A stretch of 64,000 nucleotides of DNA from Microbacterium horticulturae. GTDB lineage: Bacteria > Actinomycetota > Actinomycetes > Actinomycetales > Microbacteriaceae. The notes under the pieces were generated by a model that was not told where the DNA came from, made no database searches, and saw only the letters and a list, made by a program, of their open reading frames with translations. This document shows positions 2,039 through 41,130 of this stretch, in pieces (the first letter of the stretch is position 1; each line of letters opens with the position of its first letter). A program made the translations under genes and the position numbers. The DNA lies in contig NZ_CP119108.1 in assembly GCF_029094505.1 (NCBI RefSeq), forward strand, positions 2,790,001-2,854,000. The letters run 5' to 3'.

Positions 2039-2047
2039 TGAAAAATG

Positions 2048-2165
2048 TTCGGCGGTGTCCTACTCTCCCACAGGGTCCCCCCTGCAGTACCATCGGCGCT
2101 GAGAAGCTTAGCTTCCGGGTTCGGAATGTGACCGGGCGTTTCCTTCTCGCTATGGCCGCCGAAAC
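2048..2165 (-). rRNA. rrf: 5S ribosomal RNA
   Basis: The minus strand reads GTTTCGGCGGCCATAGCG at the 5' end (2165 downward) and closes with GGACACCGCCGAA near 2048; these termini pair to form helix I. The internal CCGAACCCGGAAGCTAAGC segment is the conserved 5S loop. Length about 118 nt is normal. End positions are estimated to within a few bases. Confidence 0.95.
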
Positions 2166-2257
2166 TCTATGGATATGTCAATCTGTTCTCGACCGCACAT
2201 CGAGAACCACAAAGTGGACGCAAACATCATCGCAGGATCGATGAAAAGTGTTATCAA

Positions 2258-7263
<5,006 letters not shown>

Positions 7264-7730
7264 AAAAACGAAAGCCACAACACCACCGGGAAAACGGCAG
7301 ACATCGCAGCGAGTTCAATCATGACCAAAAACGAATGTCACTGACATCCATAAAATTGATCCAAAGGAATTCTCAACCACCAACCAAAAGGCCGGCAGAC
7401 GAGGATAATTTGGCATTTGACAAGTGCACGCTGTTGAGTTCTCAAGGATCGGACGCACCCACAACCCGGCCAACCAAGACCATCGCGCAGGGCAACTTCA
7501 CAATCATACCCAGCCTGATCGTTTTTGCAAATCGAAGTGGGCCGGACCCGAAGGTCGTGGCATCCACTCCCGATCGCTGACCGAGGTGGGAACTCCCCCG
7601 CGGCCCTCTGAAGAGGTCCTGAGGTGGGAGGTGGTTCACTGCTTGAGGGGGCGGAGGCCTTTCGGCCGCTTCGCTCTTCCCTTTGGGGCGAACAAGTAAT
7701 ACTTTACGCACGGATCGCCCCTCCTGCCAA
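7264..7730 (-). promoter_or_regulatory. rRNA operon promoter and leader
   Basis: On the minus strand TTGGCA (7725-7730) and TAAAGT (7701-7706) are separated by 18 bases, a good vegetative sigma promoter about 440 bases upstream of 16S. The leader contains the motif TTGAGAACTCAACAGCGTGC near 7430-7452, matching the spacer motif, and a hairpin-rich GC block around 7640-7690. No gene is visible in 7264-7869. Confidence 0.75.
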
Positions 7731-23173: not shown

Positions 23174-24103
23174 ATGCTGACCCCCTCCGATCTCGGGGTG
23201 AAGGCGATGGCCTGGTACATCGCGCGCCGCGGCGAGCCCGCCGACTCGCGCCCCGACATCGACACGGCGTCGCTCAAGCGCCGCTTCCGTCACCTCGAGC
23301 CGGTCACCGTGACCGACATCGCGGTGCCCGGTCCGCACGGTCCGGTGGCCACGCGGCTGTACCGCGATGCGTCTCAGGACGCACGCAACGCGTTCGTCTG
23401 GGTGCACGGCGGCGCTTTCTTCGGCGGCACGCTCGACATGCCCGAGTCGAACTGGGTCGGGCTGGAGCTGGCCGCGCGCGGCATCCCGACCCTCGCCGTC
23501 GACTACCGCAAGGCGCTCCACGGCGTGAAGCACCCGATCCCACTCGACGACGTGCAGGCCGCGTGGGAGCACGCCTGTTCGCGAGCCGATGAGCTGTTCG
23601 GCACCGGCCAGGTGCATCTCGGCGGGGCAAGCGCGGGCGGGGCGCTCGTGGCCGGAGCGGCGCTGCGCCTGCGCGATGTGGACCGCCCGCTGCCGGCATC
23701 CCTCGTCCTGGCCTATCCGTTTCTGCACCCCGACCTGCCGGCGAACACGGCCGAGACGCAGAAGCTCATGGCGAAGATGCCGGCGCGGCTGCGGTTCCGC
23801 CCGCCGATCGTGCACGCGCTCGCGAAGCACTACGCCCGCGCCGCGGGGCTGCGCGACCCGTACGCGTTCGCGGGTGTCGCCGACGATCTGCGCGGCCTCC
23901 CGCCGACGTACATCCTCGTCGCCGCCATCGACGACCTGCGCTCGTCGGGCGACCTGTTCGCGCAACAGCTGCGCGACGCCGGCGTGCGGGTCGAGCTGTT
24001 CGCCGAGCGCAGCGCGACCCATGGGCACCTCAACCATCCCGAGGCGAACTCCGCACAGCGCAGCCTGAAGCGGATCCGGGCCTGGATCGACGGGTTCAGC
24101 TGA
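23174..24103 (+). CDS. Alpha/beta hydrolase, hormone-sensitive lipase type
   Basis: A 309-residue esterase of the HSL group: the HGGAFFGG oxyanion motif is near residue 78 and the nucleophile GGASAGG near residue 151; the Asp in AAIDDLRSSGD and the His in THGHLNHPE complete the expected triad. Start ATG at 23174 is 14 bases after the MFS stop; an in-frame ATG at 23111 inside the exporter gene is less likely. It is probably third gene of the MarR operon, so it may hydrolyse the exported or inducing compound. The last 8 bases overlap the convergent glycerate kinase. Confidence 0.82.
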   Translation: MLTPSDLGVKAMAWYIARRGEPADSRPDIDTASLKRRFRHLEPVTVTDIAVPGPHGPVATRLYRDASQDARNAFVWVHGGAFFGGTLDMPESNWVGLELAARGIPTLAVDYRKALHGVKHPIPLDDVQAAWEHACSRADELFGTGQVHLGGASAGGALVAGAALRLRDVDRPLPASLVLAYPFLHPDLPANTAETQKLMAKMPARLRFRPPIVHALAKHYARAAGLRDPYAFAGVADDLRGLPPTYILVAAIDDLRSSGDLFAQQLRDAGVRVELFAERSATHGHLNHPEANSAQRSLKRIRAWIDGFS

Positions 24104-25202
24104 ACCGCTGGGCCAGCCGGCGCCCGGCCTCGCGCAGCCAGCGCGCGGGGTCGGCGAGGGCGGCTTCGGTACTCCCGGCCAGTTCACTGAGGGAGAGGGA
24201 TGCCGCAAAGCCCGCGGTGTCGGCGTCAGGGGCGATCCGCCCCGCCACGAGGGCAATCGGCACTCCCGCCGCACGTGCAACGGCCATGATGTGCGTGGGC
24301 GCTTTGCCGGCGGCGGACTGACTGTCGTACGACCCCTCGCCGGTGACGATGAGGGATGCCGCGGCCGCCGCGTCGGCCAGCCTCACGAGCTCGGCGATCT
24401 CGGCGGCTCCCGAGACTGAGCGTGCACCCCAGGCCTGCAGGGCGAAGCCGGTTCCGCCCGCTGCTCCGGCGCCTGGGGCGTCGGGGTCCGCGGCCGGGAG
24501 CGAGGCGCCCAGCACCCGGGCCCAGTGCCGCAGCGCGGCATCGGCCGCGTCGATGTCGTTCGGGGCGAGTCCCTTCTGCCGTCCGAACACGGCCGCGGCG
24601 CCGCGTGGGCCGAGCAGCGGGTTGGTGACGTCCGAGAGCACGAGTGCGCCGCCGGGCGGCGGCGGCCGCAGTCCGCTCACGTCCACCGCCCGCACGGCGT
24701 CGAGCCCGCGCAGGCCGTCGCCGCCGTCGAACCGGGCGCCCAAGGACCGCAGCATCCCGGCTCCCCCATCCGTCGACGCGCTCGAACCGATGCCGAGCAC
24801 GAGACGCTCCACACCGTGGTCGAGGGCCGCGGCGATCGCCTGCCCGAACCCGCGGGTGTGCGCGTCGTGCGGCAGGCGTCTCTCCCCCAGCAGCTCGATG
24901 CCGCTCGTGGACGCGAGTTCGACGACCCCGGTGCCGCCCTGTGCGTCGGGGGTCGGCGGCAGCAGCATCCACTCCGCTTCCGTCTCGCCGCCGTCGGGGC
25001 CGGTGACGACGATCGGCATGCGCTGCACGCCCGGCATTGCGGCGGCGAAGGCGTCGAGCGTACCCTCGCCGCCGTCGGCCATCGGCCGGGCAGTGATGTG
25101 CGCGGCGGGGTCGGCCTCGCGCCAGCCTTCTGCCAGCGCATCACAGACGGCGGCTGCGCTGAGCGAGCCCTTGAAGCTGTCGGGGGCGAGGAGGATGCTC
25201 AC
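24096..25202 (-). CDS. Glycerate kinase
   Basis: A 368-residue protein of the GlxK/GarK glycerate 2-kinase family, phosphorylating D-glycerate to 2-phosphoglycerate. The start ILLAPDSFKGSLSA, the MADGGEGT motif near residue 41, GIGSSASTDGGAGM near 136 and VTGEGSYDSQSAAGKAP near 290 are all family hallmarks. The initiation codon is GTG at 25202, overlapping the gntR stop (GTGA). Co-transcribed with a FadR-type regulator and divergent from the apionate-type operon, it may handle a glycerate product from sugar-acid breakdown, though the OiaC branch predicted next door yields erythrulose rather than glycerate. Confidence 0.92.
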   Translation of the reverse strand: MSILLAPDSFKGSLSAAAVCDALAEGWREADPAAHITARPMADGGEGTLDAFAAAMPGVQRMPIVVTGPDGGETEAEWMLLPPTPDAQGGTGVVELASTSGIELLGERRLPHDAHTRGFGQAIAAALDHGVERLVLGIGSSASTDGGAGMLRSLGARFDGGDGLRGLDAVRAVDVSGLRPPPPGGALVLSDVTNPLLGPRGAAAVFGRQKGLAPNDIDAADAALRHWARVLGASLPAADPDAPGAGAAGGTGFALQAWGARSVSGAAEIAELVRLADAAAAASLIVTGEGSYDSQSAAGKAPTHIMAVARAAGVPIALVAGRIAPDADTAGFAASLSLSELAGSTEAALADPARWLREAGRRLAQRFS

Positions 25203-25945
25203 TCGGCGACCTGCGCCGTAGAATCCAGCAGCCGCGCCGAAGCGGTCGCCATGTGCACGGCCATCGCCGAGGCCGCGGCATCCCCGTCCGCGGCGCGCAC
25301 GGCCGCCAGCACGGCCTGGTGCTCGGCCAGTGCACGCTCCGCCTGTTCGCGGTCGTGGACCGCCCGGTCGGCATACACCTGCAGGAGCGACCGGATCACG
25401 TGCAGATGGTCGGTGAGCATGTCGTTGCCCGCCGCCTCAGCGAGCGCGTGGTGAAAGTCCAGATCGGCGCGCGCGAACGCCGCGAGGTCGTCGATCTTCG
25501 CGCGCATGCGCGCCACGCTCTTCTCGAGGCGAACGCATGTCGCCTCATCGGCACGCGCCGCGGCGAGCCGTGCGACGTAGATCTCAAGCCCTTCACGCAG
25601 TTCGAGAAGCTGTGCGGTGTTCCGCTCGCCGATGAGCAGCCCCCATCGCAGCGTCTGCGGCAGCAGTTCGCTCGCGGTGCCGCGCAGATAGGTGCCCGAC
25701 CCGGGCCGGACGTCGACGATCCCCAGGATCTCGAGCGCTGCGAGCGCCTCGCGCACGGCCGACCGGCCGACACCCAGGGTCGTGGCCAGCTGGCGCTCAG
25801 GGGGCAGTCGGGTGCCCGGCGTCAGCGACCCACCGGTGAACAGGTCGAGCAGTCGACGTGCGACCTCCGACACAGGCGTTCCGGATGGAAGCGTGCCGAG
25901 CGCCGCCGTGATGTCGTCGACGGAATCAGCGCGGAAGGCGGGCAT
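25199..25945 (-). CDS. GntR/FadR-family transcriptional regulator
   Basis: A 248-residue FCD-type regulator. The GntR winged helix occupies about residues 20-90 with LPPERQLATTLGVGRSAVRE and the VRPGSGTYL wing; the C-terminal all-helical FCD domain has DLDFHHALAEAAGN (metal/ligand Asp and His). ATG at 25945 was chosen as first codon of the domain; no strong RBS is visible. FCD regulators commonly respond to sugar acids or other carboxylates. It diverges from the apionate-like operon across 72 bases that hold a candidate operator, and is coupled to glycerate kinase, so it most likely controls both. Confidence 0.88.
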   Translation of the reverse strand: MPAFRADSVDDITAALGTLPSGTPVSEVARRLLDLFTGGSLTPGTRLPPERQLATTLGVGRSAVREALAALEILGIVDVRPGSGTYLRGTASELLPQTLRWGLLIGERNTAQLLELREGLEIYVARLAAARADEATCVRLEKSVARMRAKIDDLAAFARADLDFHHALAEAAGNDMLTDHLHVIRSLLQVYADRAVHDREQAERALAEHQAVLAAVRAADGDAAASAMAVHMATASARLLDSTAQVAE

Positions 25946-25982
25946 GACAGCAAAGATACCCGGCGCTGACGCGGAACGGGGC

Positions 25983-26017
25983 TTGTATTTGGTCAACCGG
26001 TTTGTCAGAATCGGGAC
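25983..26017 (+). promoter_or_regulatory. Promoter and candidate FadR-type operator of the apionate-like operon
   Basis: TTGTAT (25983-25988) and CAGAAT (26006-26011) are 17 bases apart, and the GTG start at 26018 would be close to +1, giving a leaderless mRNA. Between them TTGGTCAACCGGTTTGTCA (25989-26007) contains the palindrome AACCGGTT flanked by TGGTC and TGTCA, resembling GntR/FadR operators. Binding there would occlude polymerase. Confidence 0.55.
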
Positions 26018-26812
26018 GTGATCGGCCTCGGTACCTATGCCTTCTTCTGGCAGCACTCTCCCCGCGCGCCGCAGCCGCTCACACTCGTCGGCGCATTCGA
26101 GGCCACCCGCGAACTCGGCGTGGAGCTGTTCCAGATCTGCGATCACGCACCGCTCGAGCAGATGGGCGACGCGGAGATCCGGGATGCCGCGGCCGCCGCC
26201 CGAGCACTGGGGCTGACTGTGCAGCTGGGCACGAAGGGCATCGCCCCGGCCCATCTCGAACATTTCCTGCGACTCGCCGAGGTCTTCGACGCGACGCTCA
26301 TCCGCTCGATGCTGCACGGTCCCGACACGCATCCTTCCCTCGCGGAGGCCGAAGGACAGCTGCGATACGTGCTGCCGCGATTCACGGCATCCGGCGTCGC
26401 ACTCGCCCTCGAGACGTACGAGCAGGTGGCCACCGACGATCTGGTCGGGCTCGTCGAGCGCATCGACAGCCCCGCGCTCGGAATCTGCCTCGACCCCGCC
26501 AATGTCGTCGCCCGGCTCGAGAACCCGCGCGACTGCGTGGAACGCGCCGCGGCCCGCACGCTGAACGTGCACGCGAAGGACTTCTCATTCACCCGCGAAT
26601 CCGGCTGGGTGGGGTTCCGCTACAGCGGAGCGCGCCTGGGCACCGGGCTGCACGACCACCGGCACCTGCGGGCTCGGGTACGGCCGCACGAGCGGGGCGT
26701 CGACGAGATCGTCGAGCACTGGCTGAACTGGCAGGGCGACGTCGAGACCACCATCCGGGCCGAGCGGGAGTGGACCCGCTCAGCCATCGAGTATCTGAGG
26801 AGCACCCCATGA
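26018..26812 (+). CDS. oiaC: Sugar phosphate isomerase/epimerase-fold protein, probable 3-oxo-isoapionate decarboxylase
   Basis: A 264-residue xylose isomerase-like TIM barrel. Metal-site positions are visible as ALETYEQ (Glu near residue 129), CLDPAN (Asp near 154) and VHAKD (His and Asp near 186-189). The family is diverse, so fold alone does not give function. It is directly coupled (ATGA) to a gene resembling D-apionate oxidoisomerase and is followed by an apionate lactonase-like gene; known apionate pathways use a protein of this fold, OiaC, to decarboxylate 3-oxo-isoapionate to L-erythrulose. GTG at 26018 is taken because it suits the promoter and the conserved GLGTYAFFW start. The assignment depends on context. 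Confidence 0.6.
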   Translation: MIGLGTYAFFWQHSPRAPQPLTLVGAFEATRELGVELFQICDHAPLEQMGDAEIRDAAAAARALGLTVQLGTKGIAPAHLEHFLRLAEVFDATLIRSMLHGPDTHPSLAEAEGQLRYVLPRFTASGVALALETYEQVATDDLVGLVERIDSPALGICLDPANVVARLENPRDCVERAAARTLNVHAKDFSFTRESGWVGFRYSGARLGTGLHDHRHLRARVRPHERGVDEIVEHWLNWQGDVETTIRAEREWTRSAIEYLRSTP

Positions 26813-27663
26813 GCACCACCCACAGGATCGCCGTCGTCGGTGCGGGCGGGAAGATGGGCATGCGCGTGTCCGACAACCTCGCACGCACCGATCACATCGT
26901 CCGGTACGTGGAGAACTCCCCCGCCGGGCGGGCGCGCACCCTCGACGCCGGCCGCACGCTCACCGACGCCGCCGAGGCGGTCGCGGACGCCGACATCGTC
27001 GTGCTTGCCGTGCCCGACCTCGCCCTGCAGGCGGTCACCGCCGAGCTGGTGCCGCAGATGAAGCCCGGCGCCGTCGCCCTGACCCTCGACCCGGCCGCCG
27101 CCTATGCAGGACTGCTGACCGACCGCGACGACGTCGTGCGGGCGGTCGCCCATCCGTGCCACCCGTCGATCTTCCTGCAGCGCACAACACCGGCCGAGTA
27201 CGCCGACACCTTCGGGGGCATCGCCGCACCGCAGGACGCCATCGCCGCGGTCGAGAACGACGACCCCGCCGTGAAAGCGCTGGTCGAGGAAACCGTCCGC
27301 GCCATCTACGCACCGGTCATCGACGTGCACTTCGTCACCATCAAGCAGCTCGCCCAGCTCGAGCCCACCCTCGTCGAGACCGTCGCCTGCATGATCGGGG
27401 CGCTGCTGAACGAGGCGCTCGACGAGGCGATCCACACGATGGGCGTGCCGGAGGCCGCGGCCCGCAGCATCCTCTACGGACACACCCAGGTCGCCCTGGC
27501 CAACGGGCTGCGCGGCGACAATCCCTTCAGCGACGCGTGCCTGATCGCCATGGACTACGGACGCGAGAGCATCGTCAAAGAGGACTGGAAGAAGATCTTC
27601 CGCGACGACGAGCTCGACAGGAACCTCGCGCGGATGCTGCGCCTCGAGAAGATCGAACGATAG
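26809..27663 (+). CDS. apnO: NAD(P)-binding dehydrogenase with PGDH_C-type domain, probable D-apionate oxidoisomerase
   Basis: A 284-residue protein. The N-terminal Rossmann domain starts IAVVGAGGKMGMRV at residues 7-20 and continues DADIVVLAVPDLALQ near 65. The all-helical C-terminal half (about 150-284) resembles the family called phosphogluconate dehydrogenase C-terminal domain-containing proteins, with HPCHPSIF near 120 and FSDACLIAMDYGRESIVKEDW near 245. Members of this group have been shown to act as D-apionate oxidoisomerases (ApnO), making 3-oxo-isoapionate with NAD reduction. The start overlaps the preceding stop (ATGA). The assignment is from memory of the family plus neighbours and is not certain. 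Confidence 0.65.
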   Translation: MSTTHRIAVVGAGGKMGMRVSDNLARTDHIVRYVENSPAGRARTLDAGRTLTDAAEAVADADIVVLAVPDLALQAVTAELVPQMKPGAVALTLDPAAAYAGLLTDRDDVVRAVAHPCHPSIFLQRTTPAEYADTFGGIAAPQDAIAAVENDDPAVKALVEETVRAIYAPVIDVHFVTIKQLAQLEPTLVETVACMIGALLNEALDEAIHTMGVPEAAARSILYGHTQVALANGLRGDNPFSDACLIAMDYGRESIVKEDWKKIFRDDELDRNLARMLRLEKIER

Positions 27664-27672
27664 GAGCGGGTG

Positions 27673-28434
27673 ATGGGACGACTGGACGGCAAGACCGCGC
27701 TGATCACGGGGGCAGGGTCGGGCATCGGTCGCGGTGTGGCCAAACGCTTCGCCCGGGAGGGCGCCCGCGTCATCGTCGCCGACCGCGACGCGGATGCCGC
27801 CCGACTGGTCGCGGACGCGCTCGGGGACGCCGCACGCGCGGTCACCGTCGACATCTCCGACGAGGCGTCGGTCGAGTCCGCGTTCTCGGAGTCCGCGGCC
27901 GCGGGATGGCCGCCCGACGTGGTCGTCGCCAACGCGGGCGTGCAGCTGTTCGGCCGCGATGCGAAGATCGCCGACCTCGACCTGGAGGCGTGGAACGCGA
28001 CGATCGGAGTGAACCTGACCGGCACGTTCTTGACCGTCAAGCATGCCATCCGGACGATGCTGGCGGCGGGCATCGGCGGCTCGATCGTCCTCACCGGCAG
28101 CCCGACCGCGTTCGGCGGTACCGAGGGCGCCGCGTTCACGGCGTACAGCACGTCGAAGGCGGGGATCCATGCGCTGGCGCGGTTCGCGGCCGCAGCCTAT
28201 GCCGGCCGGGGCATCCGCGTGAACGTGGTGGTGCCCGCGTACACCGAGACGGGTCTGGTGTCGACCATCACCGAGAACGCCGCCGATCGCGCCGCGATCA
28301 TCGGGCGCATCCCGCTCGGCCGCGCCGGTGCGCCCGCCGACGTCGAGGGCGCGATGACGTTCCTCGCCTCCGACGATGCGGCATTCGCCACCGGCGCACT
28401 GCTCGCCGTCGACGGCGGCATGTCGACACTCTGA
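27673..28434 (+). CDS. Short-chain dehydrogenase/reductase
   Basis: A 253-residue classical SDR: cofactor motif TGAGSGIG at residues 12-19, NAG near 87, catalytic Ser in TGSPTAFGG near 138, and YSTSK (Tyr/Lys) near 156. The Asp after strand 2 (VIVADRDAD) suggests NAD preference. ATG 27673 follows AGGAG at 27662-27666; a GTG three bases earlier is possible. Located third in the apionate-like operon, it could oxidise apiose to apionolactone (the role of ApsD, which is of another family) or reduce L-erythrulose; the sequence does not decide. Confidence 0.85.
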   Translation: MGRLDGKTALITGAGSGIGRGVAKRFAREGARVIVADRDADAARLVADALGDAARAVTVDISDEASVESAFSESAAAGWPPDVVVANAGVQLFGRDAKIADLDLEAWNATIGVNLTGTFLTVKHAIRTMLAAGIGGSIVLTGSPTAFGGTEGAAFTAYSTSKAGIHALARFAAAAYAGRGIRVNVVVPAYTETGLVSTITENAADRAAIIGRIPLGRAGAPADVEGAMTFLASDDAAFATGALLAVDGGMSTL

Positions 28435-28446
28435 CCGAGGTGTGAC

Positions 28447-30156
28447 ATGGACTGGTGGCAGCCCGACCGCAGCTGGCGCGCCGGCGATTGGACGCTGCGG
28501 CTGCGCGGCGACGAGCTCGCCGACATCGCGTTCGCCGGGCGACCGGTTCTGCGCAGCATCCGCGCGGTGGTGCGCGACCACGACTGGAACACCGCCGCCC
28601 TCGTCGTGGACGGCATCGGCGAGAGCGCGGGCGGGCTGACCCTGCAGGTCCGCGCGAGCGGCGCGGTCACCGGACTGTCGGGGACCGTGCGGGCCGCGGC
28701 GTCCGGCCGCACCCTGACCGTGGAGCTCGACCTCGCCGTCGCCGCCGACCTCGACACGAACCGCACCGGGCTCGTCGTGCTGCATCCGGCCGACCTCGCC
28801 GGCGCCGGGCTCCGCGTGCGCCACGGCGACGGGTCGCACGAAGACACCCTGTTCCCCGCGGCGATCAGCCCGCACCAGCCGGTCTTCGACATCACCACAC
28901 TGTCCTGGCGCGCCGCCGGGCTCGACGTCGAGGCGACATTCAGCGGCGACGTGTTCGAGATGGAGGACCAGCGCAACTGGACCGACGCCTCGTACAAGAC
29001 CTACAGCCGTCCATTGGCGCTGCCGTTCCCCTACCGATTGGGCGCCGGCACGCACGTGCGCCAGCGGATCGAGGTGCGAGCCGGACGAGACGGGGGCGAC
29101 ACGGGCGGAGAGGATGCGGCGGCCGCGGCGATCGCCCTGGCCGCAGCCGGCCCGTTCCCCGAGATTTCGCTCGGCGCCGCCACAGCACCCGCACCGGCGC
29201 CGCGCGTCGAGCCGATCGGTCAGGCAGTGCTCGTCGAGCTCGACCTGGCCGCCCCGAACTGGCACGCTGCCCTCGACCGGGCCGCGACCGCCGGACTGCC
29301 GCTGGACGTGCGGCTGGTGGCCCGCGACACGCACTCGCTCGACGCGGCCGCACAGGCGCTGCGTGGGCGGAGCGTCGCTCGCGTCGCGGCGTTCCGTGCG
29401 GACGGTGAGGGCGCGCACGTGTCGGATGCCGCTCTGGTCGCCGCGCTGCGCGCAGCGCTCGGCCGAGCCGGGGTCGTCGCTGCGGTGATCGGGGGCGCCC
29501 GGTCGCACTTCACCGAGTTCAACCGTGAACACCACCGTCTGCCCGACGCGCTGGACGGCATCACGTTCAGCGTCACCGGGCTGTTCCACAGCACGAGCAC
29601 CCAGCAGCTGGTCGAGTCGATCGCGATACAGCGCCTCGTCGCGACCCAGGCCGTCGGCCTGGCCGGGGACACACCCGTGCACATCGGCCCGGTGACCCTC
29701 CGGCCGCGTTTCAACAACGTGGCGACGACTCCGGCGCCGGGTCCCGGCGCGGTCGACCTGCGCAACGGCTACGGCGCCGCCTTCGCCGATGCGGATGACC
29801 CGAGACAGATCACGCCCGAGCTGGCGGCGTGGACGATCGCGAGTGCCGCGGCCCTCGCCGTGCCGGGCGTGGCATCGCTCACGTTCTTCGAGGAGTGGGG
29901 GCCCCGCGGCATCCGCTCCTCGGGCGGCGAAGAGCTGCCGGTCGCCGCGGCGGTGCGAGCCCTGGCCGCACAGCACGGAGGCAGGCTGCTGTGCGGCGAC
30001 TCCCCTGACGGGCTCGTCTGGGCGATCGGTGCGGATGACACCGTGCTCATCGCCAACCTGGACCGGCGCGACCGGCGCGTCGAACTCGAGTCGCCCGACG
30101 GTGGGCGTGTGTTCGTGGAGGTCACGGCCGGTTCGTGGCGGCGGACCGGCCTCTAG
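28447..30156 (+). CDS. apnL: Probable D-apionate lactonase
   Basis: A 569-residue protein without signal peptide. Residues 1-190 form a beta-rich part (FAGRPVLRSIRAVVRDHDWN, then FEMEDQRNWTDASYKTYSRP near 175-195); residues about 255-520 look like a TIM barrel, with FSVTGLFHSTSTQQL near 378 and SLTFFEEWGPRGIR near 480; a small beta domain ends it. This architecture and the EDQRNWTDASYKTY block match the family that contains D-apionate lactonase (ApnL), which opens apionolactone made from D-apiose. Its place after ApnO-like and OiaC-like genes supports this. GAGGTG lies 7 bases before the ATG. Its TAG stop shares CTAG with the convergent lacI gene. Confidence 0.65.
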   Translation: MDWWQPDRSWRAGDWTLRLRGDELADIAFAGRPVLRSIRAVVRDHDWNTAALVVDGIGESAGGLTLQVRASGAVTGLSGTVRAAASGRTLTVELDLAVAADLDTNRTGLVVLHPADLAGAGLRVRHGDGSHEDTLFPAAISPHQPVFDITTLSWRAAGLDVEATFSGDVFEMEDQRNWTDASYKTYSRPLALPFPYRLGAGTHVRQRIEVRAGRDGGDTGGEDAAAAAIALAAAGPFPEISLGAATAPAPAPRVEPIGQAVLVELDLAAPNWHAALDRAATAGLPLDVRLVARDTHSLDAAAQALRGRSVARVAAFRADGEGAHVSDAALVAALRAALGRAGVVAAVIGGARSHFTEFNREHHRLPDALDGITFSVTGLFHSTSTQQLVESIAIQRLVATQAVGLAGDTPVHIGPVTLRPRFNNVATTPAPGPGAVDLRNGYGAAFADADDPRQITPELAAWTIASAAALAVPGVASLTFFEEWGPRGIRSSGGEELPVAAAVRALAAQHGGRLLCGDSPDGLVWAIGADDTVLIANLDRRDRRVELESPDGGRVFVEVTAGSWRRTGL

Positions 30157-31154
30157 CCCGTCGTCGACGCCCGTGCGACGAGTTCGGGGCGGAAGAGCAC
30201 GTGGGCATGGGGATCTGCGCCGTCGGTGTCGGCGACGAGAAGGTCGACCGCCGTCGACCCGATGAGCTTCGCGGGCTGCCGGATCGAACTGAGCGGCACG
30301 ACGGCGGCGGCGGCGAAGTCGATGTCGTCGTACCCGATCAGAGCGATATCGTCGGGCACCCGGACCTCGCCCGTCATCACGAGCCCCTGCAGCAGTCCGA
30401 GGGCGATCAGGTCGTTCGCGGCGAACACCGCGTCGGGGCGGGCCGTCGGCGCGCGCCGCGCGAGGCGCTCGCCCGCGCGCCGGCCCTCTTCGACCGTGAG
30501 CCCGTCGGTGCCGACGTACTCGAGGGTCGCCTCGGCCGTGGCCGCGACCGCCTGCTGCGCGCCGTCGAGACGGTCGGCCACCTGACGCAGCGACGTCGGC
30601 CCGCCCACGAGCGCGAGGCGCCGGCGACCGATCTCGAGCAGATGGGCGGCCGCGATGCGCCCGCCCTCGATGTCGTCGACGGCCACCGACGGGAAGCCGT
30701 CCTCCTGTGACTGCCGATCGACCAGCACCACCGACATCCCACGCTCGCGCATGCGGCGCAGGCGCGGCAGATCCTCCGCGATGGGCGTGACGAGCACGCC
30801 CGAGACCCGCTGCTGCTCGAACAGGTCGAGCGCCGAGCGCTCGCGTTCGAGCTTCTCGTCGCTGTTGGCGACGAACACCGAGAGCCCGTGCTCGGCGGCG
30901 CGGTCCTCGGCGCCGCGTGCCACATCGGTGAAGAACGGGTTGCGGATGTCGAGCACGACCAGGCCGAGTGCACGGCTCCGCCCGGCGCGCAGCTGACGCG
31001 CGGCGTCGTTGCGCACGAAGCCGAGCTGAGCGATCGCACTCTGCACGCGCTCGACGGTCTGCGCGGAGACCTTGTCGGGGCGGTTGAGCACGTTCGACAC
31101 CGTGCCGACCGACACGCCCGCCGTCGCCGCGACGTCACGCACGCTGACCGCCAC
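30153..31154 (-). CDS. LacI-family transcriptional regulator
   Basis: A 333-residue repressor. The helix-turn-helix and hinge VRDVAATAGVSVGTVSNVLN occupy residues 5-24, followed by a periplasmic-binding-protein-like sensor domain (NPFFTDVARGAEDRA near 70, DRQ near 145, FAANDLIALGL near 250). The GTG at 31154 follows AAGGGG; an upstream ATG at 31184 is less likely. It lies downstream of the leftward GH78 gene, so it probably controls the rhamnose genes by binding the two TGAATCGATTCA sites at 34926 and 35016. It is also convergent with the apionate-like operon, so a role there is not excluded. Confidence 0.88.
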   Translation of the reverse strand: MAVSVRDVAATAGVSVGTVSNVLNRPDKVSAQTVERVQSAIAQLGFVRNDAARQLRAGRSRALGLVVLDIRNPFFTDVARGAEDRAAEHGLSVFVANSDEKLERERSALDLFEQQRVSGVLVTPIAEDLPRLRRMRERGMSVVLVDRQSQEDGFPSVAVDDIEGGRIAAAHLLEIGRRRLALVGGPTSLRQVADRLDGAQQAVAATAEATLEYVGTDGLTVEEGRRAGERLARRAPTARPDAVFAANDLIALGLLQGLVMTGEVRVPDDIALIGYDDIDFAAAAVVPLSSIRQPAKLIGSTAVDLLVADTDGADPHAHVLFRPELVARASTTG

Positions 31155-31220
31155 TGCGCCCCTTTCTTCGGGCCTCTCGCGCACCCCTCCCCGCGAGCCT
31201 ATGGTACGAAGGCGCCCTTC

Positions 31221-33500
31221 TCAGTCCGATGTGAACTCGTGCGCCCCGCCGATCACCTGCTCGATGCGTCCGTCCGGCAGGACCACCTCCGCGGGCAGGC
31301 CGTCGGGCAACTCGACGCGCAGCTCGACGCCCTCGGCCGAGCGCCGCCACCCCACGGAGACCGTGCCGGTGAACGTCTCATACGAGGTCTCGGCCCAGTC
31401 GATCCCGGGTCCAGGGACGGGCTGGATCCTCACCCGGCCGTAGCCCGGCTCCGCAGGACGGATGCCGCCGACCACCTGATAGATCCAGTCGACGACGGCG
31501 CCGAGCGCATAGTGGTTGAAGCTCGTCATCTCGCCGGGGTTGATCGTGCCGTCCGGCAGCATCGAGTCCCAGCGCTCCCAGACCGTGGTCGCGCCCATCG
31601 TGACCGGGTACAGCCAGGACGGGCACTGCTCCTCGAGCAGCAGCCGGTAGGCGTCGTCGGCGTGACCCGTCTGCGACAGAGCCCAGGTGACGAACGGCGT
31701 GCCGGCGAAGCCCGTGGTGACGCGGTAGTCGCGCTCGCGAACGAGCTCGGCCAGCCGCCGGCCCGCGGCATCCCGGCTCTCGCCGTCCACCAGGTCGAAG
31801 CAGATCGCGAGCGCGTACACCGTCGCGCAGTCGGACCGGATCCGACCCCCGTCGACATAGTGCTCCTTGAAGGCCGCACGGGTCCGCTGCGCAAGGCTCG
31901 CCCAGCGCTCGGCGTCGGCAGTACGACCCAGGATCTCGGCGGCCTCACCGGCGAACGCCGCAGAGCGGTACAGACACGCAGTGGCGACCACGCCGGGATC
32001 AGCCTTCGCTGCGGCCGGATTCTCGGGCGGAGCGTCGGGGTCGAGCCAGTCTCCAAACTGGAACCCCTGATCCCAGAGGCCCGTCGGCGAGAGGACCCGC
32101 TCGACCGATTCCAGATGCAGCACCATCGCCGGATAATGCGCGGCGAGCAGGCCGCGATCTCCGTAGGCCTGCCACAGAGCCTGCGGCACCCACACCGCCG
32201 CATCGCCCCAGATCGCGGTCGCATGGGGCTGGGCGAACGGGAAGCCCTCGGGGAAGTGTGCGTATTTGAGGACATCGGGCACCACGACGGGGACGACACC
32301 ACCGGGAGAGTTCTCGAGTTCGGCGCGCAGATCGCGCAACCAGCTGTCGAGGAAGCCCGACGTGTCGAACTGGAACGAGGCCGATGCCGCATAGGCAGCG
32401 ATGTCACCGGTCCAACCCAGTCGTTCGTCACGCTGCGGGCAGTCGGTGGGCACGCTCAGGAAGTTCCCCTTCTGCCCCCAGACCGAGTTGTGCACGAGCT
32501 GGTTCACCAGCGGGTGGGAACAACGGAAGCGTCCGGTGCGACGCATGTCGGAGTGGACGACGACGGCTTCGAGATCGTCGGCCGTCACCTCGCCCGGCCA
32601 GCCGTCCACCTCGACGTAGCGGAACCCGTGGAAGGTGAACGTCGGCTCGAACGCGTCGACCTCACCGGACAGCACGAACTCGTCGGTGGCCTGCGCCGCC
32701 CGCAGCGGACGCGTGCCGAGCTCGCCGTGCTCGAGGACCTCGGCATGGCGCAGCGTGATTCGGGTGCCCGCCGGCCCCTGCACCGTGCAGCGCACCCATC
32801 CGACGAGGTTCTGCCCGAAGTCGACGAGGGTGCGACCGGAAGGCGAGAGCCAGATGCGCTCGGGGCGCAGCACCTCGTGACGTGTGACCGGTGGGCTGCT
32901 CTGCGCCACGAGCGTTCCGCGATCGACCTCGACCGGGACCACGTCGAGCCGTTGCGCGTCGCCGGCACGGAGGCGCGCGTCGATGGTCTGGCCGTTGTAG
33001 AGCGAGTTCCGCGTGATCTCGGACGACTCCGCGCTCCATTCCGTGGAAGTCGGGATGCGGCGCAGCTCACCGTCGGCGAACGTCACCGTCAACTCGGCGG
33101 CGACGGCGATGCGGTCGCCGTAGTTGGCGTCGGCCTCTGCGAATCCGAGGTCGCCCCGGTACCAGCCGTTGCCGAGCAGCAACTCGATGCGCACGTCACC
33201 GTGGCCGCCCCTCCGCAGGAGCTCGGTGACGTCGTGGGTCTGCACAGGCAGCCGCCACTCGTACGACGTCCACCCGGGCGCGAGCACCTCATCCGACACG
33301 GGTGTGCCGTCGATGCGGGCCTCGTACACGCCGTGTGCCGTGGCTGCCAGCGTCGCGGACGCGATGTCGGAGCGTGAGCGGCCGAGGGGTGCCCGCGTCC
33401 ACAGGCGCACGGCCTGCTCACGGGGCGCGTCCGCGCCGATGAACACGGCGTGCTCGAGAAGTCGGTCGGGCGAGACCGGGGCGTTCGTTAGGGGGGTCAT
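31221..33500 (-). CDS. GH78 alpha-L-rhamnosidase (759 aa)
   Basis: A 759-residue family 78 glycosidase without a signal peptide. It carries an N-terminal beta-sandwich (GVYEARIDGTPV near 57), the LVDFGQNLVGWVR segment, FTFHGFRYVEV near 290, and the catalytic (alpha/alpha)6 barrel with DCPQRDERLGWTGD near residue 352 (general acid Glu and partner Asp residues) and GATTVWERWDS near 640 (general base Glu). It releases terminal alpha-L-rhamnose from plant oligosaccharides or flavonoid glycosides. It lacks the long N-terminal domain of its neighbour at 35045, so the two may differ in substrate. It is 63 bases downstream of the MFS gene in the same operon. Confidence 0.93.
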   Translation of the reverse strand: MTPLTNAPVSPDRLLEHAVFIGADAPREQAVRLWTRAPLGRSRSDIASATLAATAHGVYEARIDGTPVSDEVLAPGWTSYEWRLPVQTHDVTELLRRGGHGDVRIELLLGNGWYRGDLGFAEADANYGDRIAVAAELTVTFADGELRRIPTSTEWSAESSEITRNSLYNGQTIDARLRAGDAQRLDVVPVEVDRGTLVAQSSPPVTRHEVLRPERIWLSPSGRTLVDFGQNLVGWVRCTVQGPAGTRITLRHAEVLEHGELGTRPLRAAQATDEFVLSGEVDAFEPTFTFHGFRYVEVDGWPGEVTADDLEAVVVHSDMRRTGRFRCSHPLVNQLVHNSVWGQKGNFLSVPTDCPQRDERLGWTGDIAAYAASASFQFDTSGFLDSWLRDLRAELENSPGGVVPVVVPDVLKYAHFPEGFPFAQPHATAIWGDAAVWVPQALWQAYGDRGLLAAHYPAMVLHLESVERVLSPTGLWDQGFQFGDWLDPDAPPENPAAAKADPGVVATACLYRSAAFAGEAAEILGRTADAERWASLAQRTRAAFKEHYVDGGRIRSDCATVYALAICFDLVDGESRDAAGRRLAELVRERDYRVTTGFAGTPFVTWALSQTGHADDAYRLLLEEQCPSWLYPVTMGATTVWERWDSMLPDGTINPGEMTSFNHYALGAVVDWIYQVVGGIRPAEPGYGRVRIQPVPGPGIDWAETSYETFTGTVSVGWRRSAEGVELRVELPDGLPAEVVLPDGRIEQVIGGAHEFTSD

Positions 33501-33563
33501 GTCTCCTTCGTTGCGTGTGTCGTCACGAGGGGCGGTGCGGCCGCTCCGGCCGCACCGCCGCGA

Positions 33564-34847
33564 TCAGACCTGTGCGGGCGTCTCCGCCTCGAGCTGCTTC
33601 TCCTCGGCGAACTGGTCGCCGCCGCGCCGCCGGAACGTGAACCATGCGACGAGAAGACCGATGGCGACGAGAGCAGACAGTGCGTAGTAGAGGCCCTGCG
33701 GACTCACCGCGATCAGCGCGGGGGTCGCGAACGCGAGCAGCGCGGCGATCACGCGGGCGACCGCGATGATCGTCCCCTGCGCGGTCGAGCGCAGAAGCGT
33801 GGGGAAGGACTCCTGCGTCCACACCTTCATGATGCCCTCGAAGGCGAACGCGCCGCCGAAGGCCAGGGCGAAGTTCATGATCACGATCGTCACGAGCGAG
33901 AAGCCGAACACGGCCGGCGCCAGGTAGCCCAGCAGCAGCACGACCGCGCCGGCGGCGAAGAACGCCATGCGGTGGCGGCCACCCACGATCTTCATGAACC
34001 ACAGACCGAAGAGGATGCCCACGGGGAAGGAGACCAGGCCGATCGCCGAGTTCGTCGCCACCGAGATGCCCGCGACGTTCACGGCGAGATAGGTGCCGAA
34101 CTGACCGCCCGTGTTGGCCGCGGTGTTCGTGAGCGCGTAGAAGACGAGGAGCGCCGCGAACGGCGCCACGTAGGGCGCGCGCAGGAGGTCACGGATGTGC
34201 ACACGATCCGCGCGGACGGTGGTGATCCCCTGGGCGCGCTCATCGCGGGCCGCACGCCAGCGTGCCGACTCGGGGATCGACAGACGGCAGAAGAACACGA
34301 TGAGGGCCATGACCCCGACCTGCCCGAACAGCAGCTGACCGCCGAGCCGTCCCGCGTCGCCGAAGAAGGTGGCGATGAGGACGGCGCTGAGGATTCCGAT
34401 CGTCCACAGGATGTTGGACAGGCCGATGATCGCGCCGCGGTTCTTGTCGGAGGCCGCCTCGGAGATGGTGGACAGCGACACCGGCAGGTCTGCTCCGGTG
34501 CCGAGTCCGGCAAGGACGACGCCCAGCAGCAGCAGCGGGAAGGCCGTGCTGAACACCAGGAGCGTCGCGCCGATCGCGATGATGAGCATCGTCACGAGGA
34601 AGACGGAGCGCCGGCCGAAGCGATCGCTGATGCGTCCGCCGAAGATGGCGCCGATCGCGATGCACAGGGTGAGCATGCCCGACATGACACCGATCTCGGT
34701 CTCGGTCACGCCGATCGTGTGCTGGTAGATGACGAGCGCGATACCCGTGGCGACGATGGTCGAGGCGTCGATGTACGACGCCATGCCGCACACCACCCCC
34801 GTCCACCAGGCGTTCGCCTGTTGGTAGTTCGAGGTCGTGATGGCCAT
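33564..34847 (-). CDS. MFS sugar transporter, probable rhamnose/rhamnoside importer
   Basis: A 427-residue major facilitator protein with 12 hydrophobic helices. GGRISDRFGRRSVF after helix 2 and IPESARW after helix 6 are the sugar porter (MFS_1/Sugar_tr) signatures. The N terminus is short and the C terminus is acidic and polar. It is first gene of the leftward arm of the rhamnose regulon (MFS-GH78-lacI), and its promoter holds the palindrome TGAATCGATTCA. As both rhamnosidases lack signal peptides, it may import intact rhamnosyl oligosaccharides, as well as free rhamnose. Confidence 0.85.
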   Translation of the reverse strand: MAITTSNYQQANAWWTGVVCGMASYIDASTIVATGIALVIYQHTIGVTETEIGVMSGMLTLCIAIGAIFGGRISDRFGRRSVFLVTMLIIAIGATLLVFSTAFPLLLLGVVLAGLGTGADLPVSLSTISEAASDKNRGAIIGLSNILWTIGILSAVLIATFFGDAGRLGGQLLFGQVGVMALIVFFCRLSIPESARWRAARDERAQGITTVRADRVHIRDLLRAPYVAPFAALLVFYALTNTAANTGGQFGTYLAVNVAGISVATNSAIGLVSFPVGILFGLWFMKIVGGRHRMAFFAAGAVVLLLGYLAPAVFGFSLVTIVIMNFALAFGGAFAFEGIMKVWTQESFPTLLRSTAQGTIIAVARVIAALLAFATPALIAVSPQGLYYALSALVAIGLLVAWFTFRRRGGDQFAEEKQLEAETPAQV

Positions 34848-34925
34848 GGGTTCTCCTTTGAACGGACGCAGCGATGCGGTCTTCTGGGACGGGTGAACTG
34901 CTTGACCGGGAAGCTAACACAAGAA

Positions 34926-34937
34926 TGAATCGATTCA
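34926..34937. promoter_or_regulatory. LacI-type operator, copy 1
   Basis: TGAATCGATTCA is a perfect 12-base palindrome with the central CG typical of LacI-family operators. On the minus strand it overlaps TTGTGA, which with TAGCTT 18 bases downstream makes a plausible promoter for the MFS-GH78 arm. Confidence 0.8.
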
Positions 34938-34968
34938 CAAGATCCGATCTCGACGATAAGTATCTTCG

Positions 34969-34998
34969 TTGACAACTTTGACGACGGCACGGTAGCGT
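34969..34998 (+). promoter_or_regulatory. Promoter of the rhamnose catabolic operon
   Basis: TTGACA (34969-34974) and TAGCGT (34993-34998) with an 18-base spacer form the best vegetative promoter match in this gap. The second operator copy starts 17 bases further, just downstream of +1, so repression would block early elongation or open-complex formation. Confidence 0.65.
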
Positions 34999-35015
34999 GG
35001 CGAAAACCAGATTTT

Positions 35016-35027
35016 TGAATCGATTCA
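35016..35027. promoter_or_regulatory. LacI-type operator, copy 2
   Basis: A second exact TGAATCGATTCA, 90 bases centre to centre from copy 1. It lies in the 5' leader of the rightward GH78 gene. Two sites between divergent promoters would allow one LacI dimer or tetramer to control both arms, possibly with DNA looping. Confidence 0.8.
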
Positions 35028-35044
35028 TCGACACGGAGGTCGTT

Positions 35045-37804
35045 GTGAACGTTCGCCTCACGCATCTGCGCGCCGACCATCTGACAGCGCCACTCGCGCT
35101 ACGCCGCACGACCCCGCGGCTCTCCTGGCGTCTCGAGGCGGAGGGGGCTCCGGCGAGCGCCGTCGCCCACCGCGTCCGCATCCACCGGGCCATCCCCGAC
35201 GGCACGTCGGAGATGGTGCACGACACCGGCTGGGTCGACTCCCCCGACGGCACGTCACAGCCGGACGGCTTCACGGGCCTGCCCGGCGAGGAGTATCGAT
35301 GGCAGGTCACGGTGCGCACGGCCGACGGCGGAGAGACGACGGCGGAGAGCGGCTTCGGCATCGGGCTGAGCGAGTGGGGCGCACCGTGGGCCGAGCCGGT
35401 GCAGCAGCCCGTTCTCGAAGACGGTCCCCTGCAGCTCGGACCGGAGGCCTTCGGCGCTGCGGCCAGCGCCGGCCCTCCCGGTGACCGGTTGCACCCGCCG
35501 CGGCACCTTCGGCAGTCGTTCGCGCTGCCCGCACGGCCGGTGCGCGCGCGGCTGCGGATCACGAGCCAGGGAGTGCATCAGCCCTCCGTCAACGGCGCGC
35601 CCGTCGGTGACGGCGTGCTCGCCCCGGGCTATGAGAGCTATCAGCACGCGATCTCCGTGATGACCCACGATGTCACGGCACAGCTGGCGCCCGGCGAGAA
35701 CGTCCTCGGCGTCGTCCTCGGCGACGGCTGGTACGCCGGCCGCATCTCGATCCTCGGACGCAGCGCACAGTACGGCGATCTGCTCCGGGCGAGCTGGCGG
35801 CTCGAGGTCGATCTCCCTGACGGAACGCGCATGCTCATCACCCCAGACGACTCCGTCACCTCCGCGCGGGGGCCCATCGACTGGTCCGACATCTTCATCG
35901 GCGAGCGCCACGACGCCCGCTCCGCGATCCCCGGCTGGGATGCACCGGGCTTCGACGACAGCGGCTGGAACGCCTGCGCGCTGCGGACCGTCGAGGTGCC
36001 GCTGCGGCCGTTCATCGGCGAGCCGATCACCCGGGTCGCCGAGCTTCCCGTGCAGCAGATCCTGACGACGCCCTCCGGCGACACGGTGCTCGACTTCGGT
36101 CAGGTCCTCGCCGGCAGGGTGCGGATGACAGTCCGCGGACGCCGCGGTCAGGTCGTGCGCCTCGAGCACGCCGAGGTCGTCGACAGCACGGGCGAGTTCC
36201 TGGACAACATCCTCGGCGTGAACAAGGACCAGGCCGACGAGTACGTGCTCTCAGGCGCTCCCGAGGGCGAGACGTGGGAGCCGCTGTTCACCTTCCACGG
36301 CTTCCGCTACGTGAAGCTCATCGGCTACCCGGGCGCACCGCGCCCCGAGGACTTCGCCGCGGTGGTCATCGCGAACGACCTCGAGCAGACGGCATCCTTC
36401 CGCTCTTCGGATCCCCGTCTCGACCGACTGGTGCAGAACACGATCTGGTCGCAGCGGTCGAACTTCCTCGCGGTGCCGACCGACTGCCCCCAGCGCGAGC
36501 GCGCCGGCTGGACCGGCGACCTGCAGATCTTCGCCCCGACGGCCGCCACCCTGATGGGCGTCGCGTCGTTCCTCGAGCGGTGGCTGGAGAACCTGCGCAC
36601 CGATCAGAGCGTGCGCGACGGTGTCGTGCCGATCATCGTCCCGATGCCGCCGGCGATGGACGAGGTCGACCACGGCGAGGACAGCGTTCTCGACATCCGT
36701 GACGCCGCGGGATGGAGCGACGCGGTGACCATCGCGCCCTGGGAGCTGTACCGGCACTACGGCGATCCCCGGTTCCTGAGCGACAACCTCGCTGCGATGA
36801 CGGCGTGGGTCGAGCATCAGACGAAGGACGCCGCGGTCACGCTGCCCCCACGTCTCCGCGATGCGCCGCTGAGCGAGCGCCAGCGCGCGAACCACGCGCT
36901 GCTCTGGAACGGCCGCATGAACTTCGGCGACTGGCTCGCCCCATCGACCCTCGCCTCGGGCGAGGACGAGTTCGAGGCCATGATGATCGCGCCGAAGCTG
37001 ACTGCGGAGCTCACCGGCCCGCTGTTCCAGCTGCGATCGCTCGACCTCCTCGCCGCGGCCTCCGACGAGCTCGGCGACGATGCGGAGGCGACACGGCGTC
37101 GTGCGCAGGCCGCGGAGGTGCGACGCGCCTTCGCGGAGGAGTACCTCGCCGACGATGGCCGGATCATCCCCGACATGCAGGGCATCTACGTGCTGGCGCT
37201 GGCCTTCGATGCGGTGCCGGCGGACCGGAAGGCGACCGTCGTCGACCGGCTCGTCGAACTCATCCACACCGCCGGTGACCACCTGGACACCGGGTTCGTC
37301 TCGGTGCCCTTCCTCCTCGACGTGCTCTGGGAGAACGGCCACGCCGAACTCGCTCGCACCCTGCTGCATCAGGACTCGGCGCCCTCGTGGCTCTACGAGG
37401 TCGACCACGGCGCCACCACCATCTGGGAGGCCTGGCACGCCGTGCACGAGGACGGCACCGTCGACCGCGTGTCGATGAACCACTACGCGTTCGGCTGCGT
37501 CGTCGACTGGATCATGCGCCGCCAGGCCGGCATCGATCTGGTCGCGCCGGGGTACGCGCGGTGGCGCATCGCCCCCGATCTCGACGGACGTCTCGATCAC
37601 TGCGCGGCCCACGTCGACACCCCCTCCGGTCGGTTGGCCGTCGAGTGGAGCCGAGACCGCGACGCGGCATCCCTCACCATCACCGTCCCGCCAGGGACGT
37701 CCGGAACAGTCGTCGTCCCGGACGGCTGGCGCCTCGACGGCGAGTCCGAGCACGGCGCCGGGACCCGCACACTGACCATCGCACGAGAAAGCACCGCATC
37801 ATGA
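35045..37804 (+). CDS. GH78 alpha-L-rhamnosidase, large form (919 aa)
   Basis: A 919-residue family 78 enzyme. The N-terminal fibronectin-like domain (SWRLEAEGAPASAVAHRVRI near residues 23-42) precedes two beta domains (VNGAPVGDGVLAPGYESY near 183), LDFGQVLAGRVRM near 350, FTFHGFRYVKL near 417, and the catalytic barrel with DCPQRERAGWTGD near 479 (Asp, general-acid Glu and Asp in the known 5 and 7 spacing) and GATTIWEAWHAV near 785. No signal peptide. The GTG at 35045 follows GGAGGT at the right distance. First gene of the rightward rhamnose operon; its stop overlaps rhaI (ATGA). Confidence 0.93.
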   Translation: MNVRLTHLRADHLTAPLALRRTTPRLSWRLEAEGAPASAVAHRVRIHRAIPDGTSEMVHDTGWVDSPDGTSQPDGFTGLPGEEYRWQVTVRTADGGETTAESGFGIGLSEWGAPWAEPVQQPVLEDGPLQLGPEAFGAAASAGPPGDRLHPPRHLRQSFALPARPVRARLRITSQGVHQPSVNGAPVGDGVLAPGYESYQHAISVMTHDVTAQLAPGENVLGVVLGDGWYAGRISILGRSAQYGDLLRASWRLEVDLPDGTRMLITPDDSVTSARGPIDWSDIFIGERHDARSAIPGWDAPGFDDSGWNACALRTVEVPLRPFIGEPITRVAELPVQQILTTPSGDTVLDFGQVLAGRVRMTVRGRRGQVVRLEHAEVVDSTGEFLDNILGVNKDQADEYVLSGAPEGETWEPLFTFHGFRYVKLIGYPGAPRPEDFAAVVIANDLEQTASFRSSDPRLDRLVQNTIWSQRSNFLAVPTDCPQRERAGWTGDLQIFAPTAATLMGVASFLERWLENLRTDQSVRDGVVPIIVPMPPAMDEVDHGEDSVLDIRDAAGWSDAVTIAPWELYRHYGDPRFLSDNLAAMTAWVEHQTKDAAVTLPPRLRDAPLSERQRANHALLWNGRMNFGDWLAPSTLASGEDEFEAMMIAPKLTAELTGPLFQLRSLDLLAAASDELGDDAEATRRRAQAAEVRRAFAEEYLADDGRIIPDMQGIYVLALAFDAVPADRKATVVDRLVELIHTAGDHLDTGFVSVPFLLDVLWENGHAELARTLLHQDSAPSWLYEVDHGATTIWEAWHAVHEDGTVDRVSMNHYAFGCVVDWIMRRQAGIDLVAPGYARWRIAPDLDGRLDHCAAHVDTPSGRLAVEWSRDRDAASLTITVPPGTSGTVVVPDGWRLDGESEHGAGTRTLTIARESTAS

Positions 37805-41009: not shown

Positions 41010-41032
41010 GCGGCCGCCCTGCCCCTCGCCCG

Positions 41033-41116
41033 CGGCGAATTCATATGAATCTGTCCATTGCACATCATTCCGCCGCCGGTTCGATGTGCACGCGACAAAT
41101 CCATATGAATTCGGCG
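41033..41116. repeat. 84-bp imperfect palindrome between rhaE and rhaB
   Basis: Two 40-base arms (41033-41072 and 41077-41116) match in reverse complement at 31 of 40 positions by my alignment, around a 4-base centre. The outer arms share GAATTCATATG, the inner arms TGCACATC. AT-rich EcoRI/NdeI-like sequence is unlike the surrounding GC-rich DNA. The right arm ends 14 bases before rhaB and next to its GGAGGGG ribosome site. It could fold in the intercistronic mRNA or be a small inserted repeat. Confidence 0.8.
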
Positions 41117-41130
41117 GAGGGGCGGGGGCG

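Follow-up and report, generated by a model that had tools for sequence, protein, structure and literature searches.

How would an actinobacterium bring D-apiose, a branched and rare sugar of plants, into catabolism when the dehydrogenase expected for the first step is not found in it? The question is raised by four plus-strand genes at 26018-30156 of a 64,000-nucleotide stretch (positions 2,790,001 to 2,854,000 of contig NZ_CP119108.1) of Microbacterium horticulturae, hereafter the window; the genome of this strain (G000; other G numbers denote genomes, and L numbers loci or regions, that we compared) is one contig of 3,645,982 bases. A first-pass annotation had described four adjacent same-strand genes in an actinobacterium, resembling OiaC, ApnO, a short-chain dehydrogenase/reductase (SDR) and ApnL, and had suggested the SDR for the role of apiose dehydrogenase. 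Gene calling by codon usage bore out the description and its coordinates, and the host is indeed an actinobacterium. All four reading frames are open, and neighbouring genes are separated by, or overlap by, at most 12 nt. The operon consists of an OiaC-like 3-oxo-isoapionate decarboxylase with a xylose-isomerase-like TIM barrel (26018-26812, GTG start, 264 aa), an ApnO-like D-apionate oxidoisomerase (26809-27663, ATG start, 284 aa, overlapping the OiaC gene by 4 nt), the SDR, a proposed D-apiose 1-dehydrogenase (27673-28434, ATG start, 253 aa, with an in-frame GTG at 27670 as an alternative start), and an ApnL-like D-apionolactone lactonase (28447-30156, ATG start, 569 aa).

We propose that the operon serves oxidative D-apiose catabolism, a reading in which we place considerable confidence. 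The SDR would oxidize C1 of D-apiose, probably with NAD+, to D-apionolactone; ApnL would open the ring to give D-apionate; ApnO would convert this, with migration of the hydroxymethyl group, to 3-oxo-isoapionate; and OiaC would decarboxylate the latter to L-erythrulose, which a DhaK-type kinase and TPI- and RpiB-type isomerases from another locus of the genome would carry to D-erythrose-4-phosphate. Our case is built on compared protein families, gene order, co-occurrence and a conserved site, from which we infer every catalytic step (above all the substrate of the SDR), the cofactor and the repression discussed below.

D-apionate degradation through OiaC was reportedly described by Carter et al. 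in 2018 with the set ApsD, ApnL, ApnO and OiaC. The window resembles this pathway in its ApnL, ApnO and OiaC homologues, and most of its relatives also have the kinase and isomerase genes alongside. Unlike that pathway, it has an SDR where ApsD, a Gfo/Idh/MocA dehydrogenase, is expected, a FadR-type regulator with a conserved site, a divergent ApnL subfamily and an unlinked kinase and isomerases. A Gfo/Idh/MocA gene lies immediately upstream of ApnL in five of seven proteobacterial ApnL plasmid loci (L002, L228, L230, L231 and L232; not L003 or L229), and the same arrangement recurs in four (L127-L130) of nine further regions at 43-46% identity to the L002 protein. No ApsD-type gene of this family was found in 39 related ApnL regions. 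Searching 17 genomes (11 of them ApnL-positive) with the ApsD-type protein of L002 returned nothing above 84 bits, the ApnL-negative genomes scoring at about the same level, and the best match in G000 reached 43 bits at 27% identity. No Gfo/Idh/MocA orthologue was thus found near ApnL or elsewhere in G000, and the dehydrogenase of the operon is the SDR.

This SDR matches PF13561 (E 1.8e-54) and PF00106 (E 5e-45). In a tree of 84 of 152 rows (44 labelled sequences and the 40 best others), it forms one clade with 43 other SDRs (SH-aLRT 100), a grouping that is partly definitional because members were labelled by a 58% identity line. All but one of these 43 (L235) lie near an ApnL, ApnO or apiosidase-like gene. 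The end branch of the window SDR is long (0.33), and the protein retains 106 of 110 near-invariant columns, including Ser, Tyr and Lys, which from their motif we take to be the catalytic residues. Among 149 genomes of the same genus, ApnL is present in 40, ApnO in 40 and the SDR in 39 (E 1e-60 or better), with all three in 37. ApnL occurs apart from the other two in G046, G052 and G105, ApnO in G066, G104 and G115, and the SDR in G009 and G087. The SDR tracks ApnL rather than OiaC/ApnO: in the 40 ApnO-positive genomes, SDR and ApnL go together, 37 having both and 3 neither (Fisher p 1e-4, uncorrected for relatedness).

The settings in which the SDR occurs point the same way. A search of genome contigs with the protein gave two orthologues (69% and 66% identity), each immediately upstream of ApnL, and the other 78 of the 80 loci (at most 42% identity) had no ApnL, ApnO, OiaC, DhaK or apiosidase match in the stretch covered. 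In Glycomyces artemisiae (L148), the SDR gene immediately precedes ApnL, and neither ApnO nor OiaC was found within the 20.7 kb covered. The operons of G075, G088 and G005 do not contain the SDR gene, an orthologue of which (73-78% identical) lies elsewhere in each genome, immediately behind a GH78 rhamnosidase and an apiosidase-like gene; this trio is also present in G009 (loci L143, L144, L145 and L234 for the four genomes). Finally, an SDR 61% identical to that of the window adjoins, divergently, a second cluster of G103 (L074) made up of a binding protein, permeases, an ATPase, an acid-sugar-kinase-type gene (SBD_N/NBD_C), ApnO, ApnL and a RuBisCO-like protein. We place the SDR at the first step because what these settings have in common is the release of apiose or the hydrolysis of apionolactone, not the formation of L-erythrulose. 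Co-occurrence, settings and the lack of a close ApsD match lend comparative support to the role first suggested for the SDR. We also think it likely, if with slightly more reserve than for the pathway itself, that the SDR represents a second, unrelated family of D-apiose 1-dehydrogenases that replaces ApsD in actinobacteria as a portable unit, found in Glycomyces together with just ApnL, in Microbacterium in combination with a lower pathway of the OiaC or the RuBisCO-like type, or else downstream of genes for rhamnosidase and apiosidase-like proteins, which would free apiose.

Several observations weigh against our proposal. With the SDR, 228 NCBIfam families give a match, and among the 25 listed no score reaches the family cut-off. 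G009 has the SDR without ApnO or ApnL, and for G087 the 18 kb covered contain the SDR and no apiose gene. Two genomes outside the genus, G271 and G360 (L124 and L125), contain DhaK-RpiB-TPI-OiaC-ApnO-ApnL with apiosidase and GH42 genes and have no SDR match at E 1e-40 genome-wide; no ApsD was found in the stretch covered, their whole genomes not having been searched for it, so that with neither dehydrogenase type either a third solution exists there or the SDR is dispensable. In G005, a separate OiaC-ApnO locus (L101) has a Gfo/Idh/MocA gene, 25% identical to the L002 protein, just after ApnO on the opposite strand. The window ApnL scores 215.5 bits with NF049900 (D-apionate lactonase), for which the curated cut-off is 750 bits, and so falls outside this equivalog. 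Lastly, a genome scan with PF13204 (Apiosidase) gave no match in G000 and listed nothing in G075, G088 or G009, negatives that are not firm because the scan missed a copy in G075 that hmmscan found.

Could the SDR act downstream instead, on L-erythrulose (for example by reducing it to a tetritol), with apiose oxidized by an enzyme encoded elsewhere? L-erythrulose is the expected product of OiaC, polyol dehydrogenases occur among SDRs (the PDB matches of the window protein include a galactitol dehydrogenase), and the operons of G271 and G360 do without an SDR of the window type. Against this, all three ApnO-positive, ApnL-negative genomes lack the SDR at E 1e-60. In two of them, G115 (L147) and G104 (L233), kinase, isomerases, OiaC and ApnO stand in a row with no SDR, although the G104 contig ends 3.4 kb past ApnO, and in the third, G066 (L146), RpiB, TPI, OiaC and ApnO lie at a contig end, again with no SDR. 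The SDR adjoins the kinase/RuBisCO-like-type cluster L074, whose decarboxylation product should be phosphorylated, stands beside ApnL without OiaC in L148, and follows apiosidase-like genes in four genomes. We regard the downstream role as unlikely.

The names OiaC, ApnO and ApnL are annotations, and the family assignments of the first-pass annotation are upheld by profile matches and by identities to named proteins. The OiaC-like protein matches PF01261 (61.9 bits, cut-off 31.1, E 1e-16), is 48% identical over 261 aa to a protein named 3-oxoisoapionate decarboxylase by JGI (P0174) and has a homologue in Pectobacterium carotovorum at 50% identity; it combines the TIM barrel with a full-length match to a named member, the name being that of the source annotation. 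The ApnO-like protein has a Rossmann and a PGDH_C domain (PF16896, 186.6 bits, cut-off 25, E 4e-55) and matches a named member over its full length: P0325 of Pantoea brenneri, named D-apionate oxidoisomerase, is 57% identical to it over 284 aa. Structure 5t57_A, presumably Cupriavidus ApnO, matches it with E 1.2e-58, and an NCBIfam scan of the protein matched no ApnO model.

ApnL is the divergent member of the set. NF049900 is its sole NCBIfam match (E 1.4e-63), three further actinobacterial ApnL proteins score 204-237 bits with this model, and of three proteobacterial proteins, those of L002 (770) and L228 (818) pass and that of L003 (618) fails. Precomputed domain data give PF25838 and PF25837 for the window protein; a Pfam-A scan of it found no match, and for one proteobacterial ApnL returned only a sub-threshold DUF even at E 10, which is uninformative, PF25838 and PF25837 seemingly being absent from that library. 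Identity to L074 and to seven proteobacterial rows of the alignment is 30-33%; a protein of Microbacterium sp. KR10-403 (89%) is the nearest homologue beyond the window, and most of the named homologues listed are from Microbacterium, on which basis the group of 149 same-genus genomes is taken to be Microbacterium. Residues E171, E173-W178, D180, K184-Y186, E357, N359, R360 and H381 are identical in 16 of 16 aligned sequences, the window included, and when more distant actinobacterial rows are added (22 sequences), Q175, T185, E357 and N359 are nearly invariant and the other core residues still invariant. Since the invariant core is present and the score lies below the cut-off, the window ApnL is, on this comparison, a member of the wider ApnL family outside the curated equivalog. 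The first-pass annotation, which a 569-residue protein outside the ApnL family would have refuted, therefore does not come through this check cleanly.

A second alternative is that the operon degrades another aldonolactone and that the ApnL-like protein is a paralogue with shifted substrate. Besides the low NF049900 score, this draws on ApnL-like genes that lie beside rhamnose genes in G052 and G105, both without ApnO and SDR, but ApnO and OiaC closely resemble proteins whose names place them in the apionate pathway, the core residues of ApnL are retained, and apiosidase-family genes are enriched and often adjacent. PF13204 is found in 19 of 40 ApnL-positive genomes versus 8 of 109 ApnL-negative ones (Fisher p 1.5e-7, uncorrected for relatedness), and lies within 5 kb of ApnL in ten (G019, G028, G049, G062, G065, G074, G100, G101, G109 and G129). 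Among the apiosidase-like genes that precede the SDR, those of G005 and G075 match PF13204 above cut-off, the G088 copy matches DUF5060 and DUF5605 only (E 1e-5), and for the G009 copy the match comes from BLAST alone (37%). Taken together, we consider another aldonolactone an improbable substrate. Apiose itself is described as a branched sugar that occurs in rhamnogalacturonan II and in numerous plant glycosides (PMC11747546). The G000 strain may rely on other organisms to free it, or may possess an enzyme that escaped detection.

Gene order was compared in 39 regions from 38 ApnL-positive genomes (G103 has two; G046, where the ApnL frame has 95 residues, was left out, and the window's genome is the fortieth). 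The usual order is the FadR-type regulator and then, divergently, (MFS), DhaK, RpiB, TPI, OiaC, ApnO, SDR, ApnL. Strict same-strand adjacency holds for OiaC>ApnO in 34 of the 39 regions, ApnO>SDR in 33, SDR>ApnL in 30, DhaK>RpiB and RpiB>TPI in 28 each, and TPI>OiaC in 27. In G105 and G052 (L042 and L060), whose genomes have no ApnO and no SDR match, the location of the ApnL-like gene beside rhamnose genes suggests either a remnant or some other lactonase. The same neighbour genes lie upstream in L060, L048 and the window, so that the chromosomal site looks the same. An FAD enzyme of the D-arabinono-1,4-lactone oxidase family (PF04030 in one member scanned) occurs in eight gene-called regions, including L042 (7727-8974). 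In the low-GC genome G319 (L131, 9050-13213), ApnO, OiaC, SDR and ApnL stand in a row at 26-45% identity to the proteins of the window or of Erwinia. Near the OiaC-ApnO pair of G115 (L147, 9510-12360) are mandelate-racemase-type, DHDPS-type and epimerase-type genes, a GH42 gene and an apiosidase gene, with no ApnL, perhaps another oxidative sugar route.

The window operon has no DhaK, RpiB or TPI genes. We take these three to fit an L-erythrulose kinase and two isomerases leading to D-erythrose-4-phosphate, roles borrowed from the tetritol pathway. A module not seen in the first-pass annotation supplies homologues of all three, which lie together at G000:334280-337276 and are 60%, 47% and 42-43% identical to the Erwinia set. 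Within G000:326000-345900, they are preceded by a ribose-type ABC transporter and two zinc alcohol dehydrogenases and followed by a DeoR regulator and a PfkB gene. This is probably a locus for tetritol use that apiose catabolism would share, and since parts of its transporter are 44-49% identical to the transporter of the L002 ApnL cluster, the transporter might carry apiose. The kinase gene is likewise away from the operon in G091, G095 and G141; in G091, a genome 68% complete, its match (L100, G091:C1) falls into three overlapping pieces, and the gene looks interrupted. The transporter, the two zinc alcohol dehydrogenases, DhaK, RpiB and TPI liken the G000 locus to the tetritol/erythrulose pathway of Mycolicibacterium smegmatis, a likeness that presumes the gene roles of the latter; unlike it, the G000 locus would also provide the lower half of apiose catabolism. 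The M. smegmatis route has been outlined (PMC12780249).

Also unseen earlier was a divergent regulator of the FadR type (GntR/FCD; 25199-25945, minus strand; FCD 90.3 bits, GntR 65.3 bits), which has orthologues in 24 other gene-called regions, with an operator-like site, TTGGTCAACCGGTTTGTCA (25989-26007, plus strand), in the 72-nt divergent intergenic stretch. The word GGTCAACC of this site is present in 19 of 20 regulator/operon intergenic stretches, the window included; the word count missed L047 (called gene start too far upstream), and a genome scan recovered the site in G075, the genome of L047, with one mismatch. Allowing two mismatches, the 19-base pattern has a single match in the whole of G000, without mismatch. 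Across 14 genomes, nine match and five do not, namely G001, G002 and G007 (no ApnL, ApnO or SDR), G105 (ApnL only) and G009 (SDR only), and the reversed pattern matches in one (G104). G095 has a second copy, with two mismatches, about 25 bases before ApnL. A possible promoter (TTGTAT, a 17-nt spacer and CAGAAT; 25983-26011, plus strand) has its spacer inside the site and ends 6 nt before the OiaC GTG at 26018; a consensus promoter scan at the site gave no sigma-70-type match. The site lies between TTGTAT and CAGAAT, and this layout suggests a repressed, leaderless transcript whose mRNA would start at that GTG; the regulator probably represses the operon by binding at this conserved site. Least probable of all is that the operon of G000 is in decay or does no more than salvage D-apionate or apionolactone, as the missing apiosidase match, the unlinked kinase and isomerases, the single operator copy and the long end branch of the SDR might indicate, given the four open frames, the 106 of 110 columns kept by the SDR, an operator free of mismatches and a kinase equally unlinked in G091, G095 and G141, though that of G091 looks interrupted.

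The pathway and three of its enzyme families are already known, and other systems combine them differently. Proteobacterial clusters L002, L228, L231 and L232 contain an ABC transporter, DUF2291, Gfo/Idh/MocA, ApnL and RuBisCO-like genes (L230 lacks the RuBisCO-like gene in the stretch covered); they share with the window an ApnL homologue and the lactone route, and L228, L230, L231 and L232 also an ApnO-type gene. They differ in the Gfo/Idh/MocA gene immediately before ApnL and in that the place of OiaC is taken by a RuBisCO-like decarboxylase, which carries the annotation OiaX in L228 and L231. The Erwinia/Pantoea plasmid clusters MFS-DhaK-TPI-OiaC-ApnO (L033, L034) are close to the window in OiaC (48%) and ApnO (56%), with DhaK and TPI preceding OiaC-ApnO and rpiB divergent nearby; unlike the window, they have no ApnL, SDR or Gfo/Idh gene annotated in 16.9 kb, and L034 has a downstream SMP-30/gluconolactonase-family gene. 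For a Rhodobacteraceae strain, an apiose enzyme set with a kinase/phosphate-decarboxylase lower half is described together with growth on D-apiose (PMC11747546); for RuBisCO-like enzymes, Carter et al. are cited in PMC6302742; and in E. coli, two putative oxidoreductases are described as replacing the isomerase apsI, leaving an unexplained apiose entry step (PMC13001218). No SDR entry step or Microbacterium operon was found in the open literature, a search that did not extend to the founding 2018 study, so that an earlier mention is possible. If our proposal is true, the entry enzyme is non-orthologous and ApsD-based searches miss the pathway in Microbacterium, where ApnL occurs in 40 of 149 genomes; an enzyme would be ready for assay, and the pathway would appear assembled from exchangeable upper and lower modules.

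The surroundings of the operon add some minor observations. The regulator gene is followed by a glycerate kinase gene that shares 4 nt with it (24096-25202, minus strand; TIGR00045 290.6 bits, cut-off 168.45). A plus-strand open reading frame proposed by the gene caller at 25253-25969 was dropped because the minus strand there encodes the FadR-type regulator. An rRNA operon (16S, 23S, 5S) occupies 2047-7265 on the minus strand, and outside it the G+C content of the window is about 70%. Beside the apiose operon, at 30153-42546, lies a rhamnose block of LacI (minus), GH78 (minus), MFS (minus) and GH78 (plus) genes, a RhaA-like isomerase, an aldolase-SDR fusion and an FGGY kinase; LacI and rha genes are also found downstream of ApnL in L042, L055, L060 and L149.

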